From contig NZ_STGL01000005.1 in assembly GCF_004919085.1 (NCBI RefSeq), positions 186,001 through 250,000 on the forward strand: DNA of 64,000 nt, read 5' to 3'. Below, in pieces: positions 50,151-51,928 of this stretch. The translations under genes were made by a program, and so were the position numbers. Source of the stretch: Nocardioides sp. GY 10127 (GTDB lineage: Bacteria; Actinomycetota; Actinomycetes; Propionibacteriales; Nocardioidaceae). The stretch's first letter is position 1. Each line of letters opens with the position of its first letter. The notes below the pieces were generated by a model. The model was not told where the DNA came from, ran no database searches, and saw only the letters and a program-made list of their open reading frames with translations.

Positions 50151-50210
50151 CGCTCCGTCCCGCCCCGTCCCACTCCGTCCCGCTCCGTCCCGCTCCGTCC
50201 CAGTCCGTCG
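50151..50210. repeat. Six 10-bp direct repeats upstream of the LuxR-type gene
   Basis: Six head-to-tail units of consensus CGCTCCGTCC (two units differ by one or two bases, the last ends in G), 118-177 bases before the regulator start and just after the pckG terminator. A 10-base period places each unit on the same DNA face. Confidence 0.9.
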
Positions 50211-50327
50211 GTCGACACGGTGTGCACGCGTGCGTGGACGCCTCGTGGGGTATCCGACGGCTGTGGAACGATGCGGGAGCACGACCGTGACGCACGGCCG
50301 TGGCGGGACTCGCAGGAGGGAGCGGCG

Positions 50328-51347
50328 GTGAACGGCTTCGGTCCGGAGCAGCGCGCGCTGTTCGAGAAGGCGGCGGTGCCGCTCTACGAGGACGTGCTGG
50401 CCGCCGGCGGGATGGCCGCGGACGACGTCCGCGTCGCCGAGGGGGCCGCCGAGCGCCCCGCCTTCGAGCTGCTCGTCGAGCTCGGTCTGCTCCAGCTCGA
50501 CGAGGCGGGCGAGCGCTGGCGACCGGAGGACCCCTCCACCGTCCAGTCCCGCGTCGTCGCCCCCATGAACCAGGAGTCGACCCGCCTGCTGCAGGAGTCG
50601 ACGGAGTGGGCCCGCGCGTTCACCGGGATCGGCCAGGCCTGGCGCCGCACCCCGCACGCGGAGGGCCCCGGGCCGTTCACCTACCTGCGCGACGGCGCGA
50701 TCGGCCGCTTCCTCACCGGCCTGGTGGCCGACGCCGAGACCGAGATCCTCACCGCCCAGCCGCAGGCGGGCCGCGACGCGCAGACCCTCGCCGCGGCCGT
50801 GCTGCGCGACACCGCCGCCCTCGAGCGGGGCGTCTCGCTGCGCACGCTCTACCAGCACTCCGCCCGCCGCTCCGTGGTCACCGCGCAGTACGTGCAGGAG
50901 GTCTCGGCCCGCGGCGCGCAGGTGCGCACGCTGGACGAGTTCTTCAACCGGATGATCGTCGCCGACCGGCGCATCGCGGTGATCCCGGGCGCCGAGGACC
51001 TGCGGGTCGCGGTCGCGGTGCGCGAGCCGTCGGTGGTGGCCTACCTCGTGGACGTGTTCGAGCGCTCGTGGGAGCGCGGGCGGCCGTTCGCGAACAAGGA
51101 GACCGGCACCATGCGCACGATCGCCGGCGAGCAGCGGGCGATGACGATCCGGATGCTCATCGAGGGGCACGCCGACCCCGCGGCCGCCAAGCGGGTCGGG
51201 GTCAGCCCCCGGACGTACGCGGGCTACGTGGCCGACCTCAAGACCGAGTTCGAGGCCGAGACCCGGTTCCAGCTCGGCTGGACCATGGGCCGACTCGGTC
51301 TCACCGGCGGGGACGACGACCCGGACCCCGACGCCTCCGACCAGTGA
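50328..51347 (+). CDS. LuxR-type HTH regulator with N-terminal TrmB/PLD-like sensor
   Basis: A 339-residue regulator. Residues 5-60 look like a winged-helix (EDVLAAGGMAADDVRVAEG ... LLVELGLLQLDEAGERW). About 115-255 is a PLD-like sensor domain (EILTAQPQAG ... LRTLYQHSARRSVVTAQYVQEVSARGAQVRTLDEFFNRMIVADRRIAVIPG). The C-terminal HTH is LuxR/GerE-like (EQRAMTIRMLIEGHADPAAAKRVGVSPRTYAGYVADLKTEFEAETRFQLG). GTG 50328 has GGAGGGAG upstream. It faces a gene for a secreted 45-residue peptide, the possible ligand. Ligand binding is inference. Confidence 0.85.
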   Translation: MNGFGPEQRALFEKAAVPLYEDVLAAGGMAADDVRVAEGAAERPAFELLVELGLLQLDEAGERWRPEDPSTVQSRVVAPMNQESTRLLQESTEWARAFTGIGQAWRRTPHAEGPGPFTYLRDGAIGRFLTGLVADAETEILTAQPQAGRDAQTLAAAVLRDTAALERGVSLRTLYQHSARRSVVTAQYVQEVSARGAQVRTLDEFFNRMIVADRRIAVIPGAEDLRVAVAVREPSVVAYLVDVFERSWERGRPFANKETGTMRTIAGEQRAMTIRMLIEGHADPAAAKRVGVSPRTYAGYVADLKTEFEAETRFQLGWTMGRLGLTGGDDDPDPDASDQ

Positions 51348-51420
51348 GCCGCCCGGCCGCAGCAGCGCGGCCGGCGTCCCCCTGACGTCCTCGGGCGAAG
51401 GCGAGCTCGGACAAAAATGT

Positions 51421-51454
51421 GCTCAGGCGCCGGACGGACAGCCGGCGCCTGAGC
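51421..51454 (-). terminator. Terminator of the small peptide gene
   Basis: A perfect 13-bp stem (GCTCAGGCGCCGG with its complement, 8-base loop) followed on the minus strand by ACATTTTTG. It lies 76 bases after the peptide stop and may also stop readthrough from the LuxR-type gene. Confidence 0.8.
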
Positions 51455-51529
51455 GGGGGGTTGTTCCGGGGACCGGTCCACACCCGAGAGGGGGACCGGA
51501 CTCCGGCACGTCTTCAGTTGGTCAGCGGG

Positions 51530-51667
51530 TCACTTCTTGACGGCGCAGTAGCCGCCGCAGCCCCAGCTGGTGTCCATGGCGTTGGCCGGCACGGCGAGCG
51601 CCGCGGTGAGCCCGAGGCCCAGCGTGGCGGTAGCAACGACGACACCGATCCTGCGAACGATCTTCAT
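51530..51667 (-). CDS. Secreted 45-residue peptide with a Cys pair (candidate signal)
   Basis: This small gene has a clear start region (GAGGAGAGGGACAGG before ATG 51667), a clear stop and its own terminator. Residues 1-30 are a signal peptide: basic MKIVRR, hydrophobic VVVATATLGLGLTAALA, and an ANA signal-peptidase site. The predicted mature peptide is MDTSWGCGGYCAVKK: 15 residues with one Trp, one Tyr and Cys at positions 7 and 11, able to form a small disulfide ring. No modification enzyme or lanthipeptide gene is nearby. It faces a LuxR-type regulator gene with a ligand-sensor domain, which suggests a peptide signal/receptor pair. It could also be a bacteriocin-like peptide. Confidence 0.8.
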   Translation of the reverse strand: MKIVRRIGVVVATATLGLGLTAALAVPANAMDTSWGCGGYCAVKK

Positions 51668-51755
51668 GAGCCTGTCCCTCTCCTCGGTCCCTCAGTGGTG
51701 GCACGAGTGTGGGCCGAGGGCGGCGAGGGGAGCGAGCGATCCGGTGCCTCATGTC

Positions 51756-51768
51756 TGTGCAGTGCACA
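51756..51768. promoter_or_regulatory. TGTGCA-G-TGCACA palindrome in the peptide promoter
   Basis: A perfect 13-base dyad about 90 bases upstream of the peptide start. On the minus strand it lies just after TTGCAG (possible -35) and before ACATGA (weak -10), where a regulator would act. Candidate operator only. Confidence 0.4.
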
Positions 51769-51928
51769 AACCTGCAATCCCTGCCGCGACCTGCGATGAC
51801 AGGCCCTCCCGGCAGGGCTGCCCTGCACACTAGGCGTCGCCGGGCGCGGACGGAAGACTTCGCCGGGATCGGCGCGTCCTGGAACAGGCGACCCCACGTC
51901 CGGCCTCGCGCGCGGGCCCGGGAAAGGC

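Follow-up and report, generated by a model that had tools for sequence, protein, structure and literature searches.

The locus analyzed here, in the genome of Nocardioides sp. GY 10127 (G000, 4.4 Mb), raises the question of whether a small secreted peptide and the regulator encoded beside it form a signalling pair and, if so, which part of the peptide would be the signal. The window, that is, the whole analyzed stretch of 64,000 nucleotides, contains a sensor-regulator gene (50328..51347, + strand; 339 aa, GTG start) preceded by an AGGAGG ribosome site (50314..50319, +), and, tail-to-tail with it, a 45-codon ATG-initiated gene for a secreted peptide precursor (51530..51667, -) with GGAGAGGG upstream. 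A hairpin scan located a terminator-like hairpin with a T-run 3' of the peptide gene (51421..51454, -), where shuffled sequences gave a mean of 0.1; on the far side of the peptide gene there is a tRNA gene (L002:3140-3230). The arrangement described by an earlier sequence-only reading, namely a peptide gene with its own ribosome site, signal peptide and terminator facing the regulator tail-to-tail, was thus present in full.

Orthologues of the regulator were detected in 35 of the 36 other genus genomes sampled (E 1.6e-107 or better), the sole orthologue-less genome (G031) being 84% complete, and the named records carrying them were nearly all Nocardioides. In the family sample, matches at 1e-40 were found in 153 of 245 genomes, with five of the genus genomes included lacking one. 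After removal of duplicates from 167 loci, 137 distinct Nocardioidaceae loci were available for comparison, and in 131 of them the regulator was followed by a tail-to-tail small ORF with a signal-like start and a D-x-x-W motif. The rule (signal-like start plus D..W) had been fitted to the first loci seen, and the controls were run under the identical rule: they gave 1/137 for the downstream sense strand, 2/132 in each of two upstream controls and 2/137 within the regulator, while ten shuffles gave a mean of 2.6 and a maximum of 5. Stricter rules retained 128/137 loci vs. 0, 0, 0 and 1 in the controls and 0 in the shuffles. Among the six misses, L072 carried SSWGCGG, L143 carried SDWPC and the sequence of L147 ended 59 nt past the regulator; no recognizable peptide was seen beside the regulator in L020/L067, L070 and L162/L309, despite enough sequence. 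The regulator-peptide pair is therefore real, and the conservation of the peptide frame beside regulator homologues, proposed earlier as a check, was borne out. Two loci (L010 and L029) were excluded from alignment A1 owing to a stop within the matched range. A search of ten genomes with the peptide profile A5 recovered the peptide in two of five regulator-bearing genomes (G208 and G155) and gave 33 matches in five regulator-less ones, ten of which were inspected and included no DxxW precursor; given the 2/5 recovery, this silence in regulator-less genomes carries little information. PADLOC returned no match.

By inspection, the first 30 residues of the precursor form a signal peptide ending in ANA (51578..51667, -), after which cleavage would release the predicted secreted part MDTSWGCGGYCAVKK (51533..51577, -). 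Comparison of homologues pointed to the D-T-S-W core within it (51563..51574, -) as the proposed signal unit. The 131 precursor homologues were uniform in their gene starts (ATG in 128, a ribosome-site-like stretch in 128) and in the presence of A-x-A (128), and their cores fell into 17 types (DTSW 37, DTGW 34, DSSW 22, DTTW 13, plus thirteen rarer). The residue after the core W was G in 92/131 and P in 16, while three precursors terminated exactly at W. The ligand had originally been proposed to be a small disulfide-ring peptide; at least two Cys occurred in the mature part of only 40/131 precursors (WGCGGxC in 32/131), and the ring was rejected as a general feature, the Cys pair being a lineage variant and D-x-x-W the conserved and multiplied unit. 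Searches of the precursors against Pfam and NCBIfam gave nothing above cut-off (thiovarsolin, 20 bits vs. a cut-off of 35).

Multi-copy precursors with two to four cores made up 16 of the 131, and the copies were identical in 16/16. With two extra Nocardioides loci and ten Streptomyces-like loci added, 28 precursors with 2-10 cores were available, and the copies were identical inside every one of them. At the two middle core residues, 338 codon pairs from these 28 precursors showed 128 synonymous and 0 non-synonymous differences, a count in which pairs from one precursor, or from related ones, are non-independent, and in which D and W themselves are fixed by the search pattern. Residues 2-5 past the core W, on the other hand, agreed in 133 of 330 comparisons (26 of the 28 precursors). 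Identical cores within variable flanks are expected if a short core peptide is the functional product and its function depends on its exact sequence; coding constraint on the peptide, a further check derived from the first reading, was found in these synonymous-only differences.

The upstream regions of the peptide genes shared an operator, which at the window's locus reads TTGCAGGTTTGTGCACTGCACAGACATGAGG (51747..51777, -) and consists of TGCA boxes with dyad symmetry. Central boxes of the form TGCA-N-TGCA (or TGCAATGC) occurred in 99/131 regions, at a distance of 80-160 nt from the start codon; in these 99, an extra box six bases before the central boxes was near-invariant (T 99, G 97, C 99, A 93), and a TG six bases past them (93 and 99 of 99) completed the dyad symmetry. 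The 13-bp palindrome (51756..51768) earlier put forward as a candidate operator is thus the centre of a larger, conserved site. In the scan that found the terminator-like hairpin no sigma-70 consensus promoter was detected, while a promoter scan placed a -10-like hexamer, CACACT, at 51706..51711 (-), at a spacing from the operator that is conserved: in 79 of the 92 peptide promoters scanned, the start of the operator and that of the best such hexamer were 64 or 65 nt apart. This fixed offset would put the operator centre near -63, a usual place for an activator. The central boxes were absent in 32/131 peptide upstream regions, including those of the DTGW clade, which still has the operator before a hairpin RNA described below. 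In loci L014-L017, L127, L128 and L154 of this clade, the TGCA operator was absent at the peptide promoter. In 10/137 loci the regulator, too, was preceded by the central boxes or by a two-box site.

Across G000, the exact three-box pattern had a single occurrence, at the peptide promoter; allowing up to one mismatch, 6 sites (1 exact) were counted vs. 20 for a reversed control pattern, and none of the five mismatch sites lay before a secreted-type ORF, so that the operator gave no regulon in this genome. The six 10-bp direct repeats before the regulator, also put forward initially as a candidate operator, exist as a GC-rich tandem array (50151-50209; 5.9 copies, 87% matches). The operator role proposed for them was not supported: no array was visible upstream of the regulator in five relatives inspected, including the closest named relative, N. 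bruguierae, and the array is therefore probably a local repeat rather than an operator.

In the class sample, regulator homologues at E 1e-18 or better were present in 73 of 296 genomes, and the distant loci inspected were the top-scoring ones, a non-random choice. In genus g55, which appears to be Streptomyces-like, a divergently oriented gene for a secreted DxxW precursor was found in 13/15 loci (13 genomes), 10 of them multi-copy; in the other two, L222 and L226, the rule identified no DxxW precursor. A shared CAGGAACATGATGCA stood upstream in 10 of the 13 Streptomyces-like regions, with TG before it in seven (counted by eye), and this box is close to the Nocardioides operator. Loci L228-L232 are Streptomyces-like clusters in which three to five regulator paralogues accompany one DSTW (multi-copy) or DTVWD precursor. 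A different secreted precursor, ending in CxnCW and likewise divergent from the regulator, was found in 12 of the 15 distant loci L203-L217, a count that is uncontrolled and obtained under a post-hoc rule; eleven of the twelve belonged to Kribbella-like genus g3, and the twelfth was a Nocardioides paralogue. These C-x(n)-C-W ORFs (L204:1706-1834, L210:1637-1768, L213:3106-3237 and L203:1128-1277, among others) constitute a second peptide class, mostly Kribbella-like, beside distant regulator homologues. No CxnCW precursor was seen in L205, L217 or L212, the last being a G000 paralogue of the regulator, and neither a DxxW nor a CxnCW precursor was seen in L198-L202 (the five strongest g3 loci) or L233-L237.

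These comparisons bear on the most serious alternative, in which the regulator controls the peptide gene and the peptide itself serves as an antimicrobial, metal-binding or surface end product and not as the ligand of the regulator. In favour of this, the peptide is secreted and short, has an operator ahead of its gene and contains at least two Cys in the 40 precursors mentioned above. Against this, the mature parts vary widely outside D-x-x-W, the identical multi-copy and species-specific cores suit a ligand better, a gene for a secreted Trp-containing peptide stays beside the receptor family in other families too, and the ORFs read in the window included none beside the peptide gene that was recognizable as a gene for modification, export or immunity. 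An end product is accordingly regarded as unlikely.

An AlphaFold2 model of the regulator (mean pLDDT 81, pTM 0.45), with a structure alignment built from 38 of 80 loci, predicted an N-terminal winged-helix-like part, a long helix, a mixed alpha/beta middle domain of PLD fold (residues ~113-256) and a helical C-terminal part containing a LuxR-type HTH (~261-323); given the pTM, the domains are better defined than their mutual arrangement. Foldseek ranked archaeal TrmBL2 and TrmB at the top (E 1.9e-13 over residues 6-255), followed by Nuc and other PLD proteins. VIA-align superposed residues 6-255 on 5box with Z 17.2 and 236 aligned residues at an rmsd of 19.4, indicating that the parts match but are arranged differently, while the middle domain alone aligned closely with the PLD-family nucleases 6ehi (Z 17.9, 134 aligned, rmsd 2.1) and 1byr (Z 17.3, 136 aligned, rmsd 2.3). 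At the sequence level the profile match to TrmBL2 was weak (E 0.1); Pfam gave no TrmB match, only sub-cutoff DUF7436 and TbsP_N for the sensor part, and neither a TPR nor a LuxR autoinducer-binding domain among matches up to E 1. The catalytic HKD residues appear to be lost, judging by eye from the corresponding stretch, which reads N207-R208-M209 to D213. The C-terminal 73 residues, modelled alone (pLDDT 87), gave VqmA (E 0.04, probability 1.00), DegU, CviR, LiaR and GerE as top Foldseek rows, with E values of 0.04-0.4 and none at 0.001 or below; Pfam GerE matched eight of the 34 close members weakly (best E 0.009) and passed its cut-off in two of the four Streptomyces-like homologues. On its predicted folds, the regulator would be a TrmB-like protein with a degenerate PLD-fold domain plus a probable LuxR-type HTH at the C-terminus, in agreement with the domain assignment made initially.

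The same architecture could serve a sensor of some other ligand, for instance a sugar as in archaeal TrmB, with the peptide being sensed elsewhere. TrmB relatives do have a sugar-binding domain (according to the title of the Foldseek row 2f5t), and a match to the end of PEPCK, which we take from its sequence to be the gene upstream of the regulator, was found near the regulator in 83/111 loci tested, as would suit a carbon-status sensor. No PLD domain is known to bind peptides, which counts against a peptide receptor. Sensing of another ligand nonetheless leaves unexplained the adjacency of secreted DxxW or CxnCW precursors across three lineages and in either of two gene arrangements, and it is judged very improbable. 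That the peptide is a chance ORF or annotation artefact, as might be suspected of any short ORF in DNA of 72% G+C, is refuted by the pairing in 131/137 loci vs. 0-5 in controls and shuffles and by the synonymous-only differences in the cores.

Exact operator sites were searched in 58 relatives, and 36 loci other than the peptide promoter were examined. At 10 of the 41 sites in these loci (palindromic ones counted on both strands) a secreted-type ORF began 60-170 nt downstream with the orientation of the operator, vs. 3 on the other side. Eight of these ten were metalloprotease-like, as was a ninth missed by the rule (L292), with starts 105-134 nt from the site. Pfam assigned M4 thermolysin-type domains in L275, L292 and L298 and M10/M57-type domains in L276 and L300, all five from other Nocardioides; L281, L296 and L299 were called metalloprotease-like from their N-termini and L274 is presumably one as well. 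The remaining two of the ten were L285 and the Kribbella-like L297. Set aside as unrelated were exact operator-like sites between a PadR-like gene and another gene in L245, L246, L248 and L250, all from Kribbella-like genomes.

At ten further sites the operator preceded a long hairpin (e.g., L254:1310-1389 (-), L256:1311-1390 (-), L262:1644-1723 (+)), the stem of which covaries, with both sides changed in 14/28 pairs, and the apex of which, UCUCGGG, was invariant across the ten. Rfam contained no family for it in the loci tested, where two microRNA matches were far below the gathering score. A covariance model detected the hairpin in 36/36 other genus genomes of the sample (E 0.01 or better), ten of which had supplied the model. 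Within 260 nt upstream of the hairpin, the best operator had at most 2/14 mismatches in 27/27 anchored loci, nine of which had supplied the model and been found via the operator; the 18 loci outside the model comprised 4 with no mismatch, 10 with one and 4 with two. Segments drawn at random from these loci reached at most two mismatches in 22/300 cases, some being the operator itself, with a mode of 6. The apex anchor was missing in three of the 30 loci and looks misplaced in L329 and L340. The operator-preceded hairpin co-occurred with the regulator, being present in 5/5 tested genus genomes with it (in G155 as the second model match) and 0/5 without it, regulator-less meaning no match at 1e-40; of those five, four gave only weak model matches lacking an operator (5-7 mismatches) and one gave no match. 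An alternative reading of the hairpin is that it is itself a strong bidirectional terminator. No copy of the hairpin was detected in G000, which, together with the single exact operator, leaves that strain with no known target beyond self-control.

The reading preferred here, with a probability of about 0.75, is that the two genes form a peptide quorum-sensing module. The Sec signal peptide would export the precursor, and processing would leave a short linear fragment spanning D-T-S-W(G); this fragment would re-enter cells and bind the degenerate PLD-fold domain of the regulator, and the LuxR-type HTH of the loaded regulator would bind the TGCA-box operator near -63, presumably activating rather than repressing the peptide promoter in a positive feedback. 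The regulator may, in addition, switch on the conserved hairpin RNA in many relatives and secreted metalloproteases in some. Quorum sensing is proposed because the core is species-specific and often multiplied, a one-component regulator is adjacent, and the operator is shared with secreted enzymes. Of the compact module suggested by the sequence-only reading, the pair, sensor, HTH and operator were upheld by comparison, while the disulfide ring and the operator role of the 10-bp repeats were not. A wider claim, considered fairly probable, is that of an actinobacterial class in which receptors with a degenerate PLD/TrmB fold and a LuxR-type HTH read short Trp-centred peptides, DxxW or, in Kribbella-like genomes, CxnCW, that differ by species and come from single- or multi-copy secreted precursors, the outputs in Nocardioides being feedback, the hairpin RNA and metalloproteases.

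No description of such a peptide-regulator pair was found in full-text searches of an open-access library. One paper sets the peptides that Firmicutes use for signalling against the small molecules, typically made by enzymes, of Actinomycetota (PMC10075063), peptide quorum sensing with intracellular receptors being described mainly in Firmicutes; an older review mentions cyclic or modified peptides and butyrolactones (PMC4748050). The recurrent pairing with a common core points to an undescribed peptide communication among these bacteria. If this is true, a peptide-receptor family would be readable from genome sequence, its ligands being only a few residues long and purchasable as synthetic peptides, so that cell-cell communication in Nocardioides and Streptomyces-like bacteria would become directly testable, and peptide sensing would be added to the PLD/TrmB fold.

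Set against known systems, the pair is best read as part of an actinobacterial linear-peptide quorum-sensing family that would work in the manner of RRNPP systems (Rap, Rgg, NprR, PlcR, PrgX and kin) and is non-homologous to them. Published criteria for RRNPP include a small Sec-type propeptide beside a cytoplasmic one-component receptor of 250-500 aa (PMC10075063). By simple rules, the locus resembles them in the small Sec-type propeptide gene adjoining the receptor and in the size of the latter (339 aa); it differs in the predicted TrmB/PLD fold and LuxR-type HTH with no TPR match, in its actinobacterial host and in propeptides that often carry several identical cores. Secreted metalloproteases are among the outputs of NprR, similar to those linked to the operator in relatives. 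Archaeal TrmB and TrmBL2 share with the modelled regulator the winged helix, long helix and PLD-like domain in the same order, but the regulator has an extra C-terminal LuxR-type HTH and a paired secreted peptide, and has no Pfam TrmB match. With LuxR-type quorum-sensing receptors it appears to share the predicted fold of the C-terminal HTH, whereas its sensor is PLD-like, with no autoinducer domain in Pfam and with a peptide as proposed partner; from PLD enzymes it differs in the apparent absence, read by eye, of the HKD catalytic motif. The agr system of staphylococci is likewise a peptide system whose outputs include an RNA and secreted proteases, as proposed here, but it relies on a membrane sensor kinase, whereas the present system would combine a soluble regulator, a linear core and a hairpin with no Rfam family.
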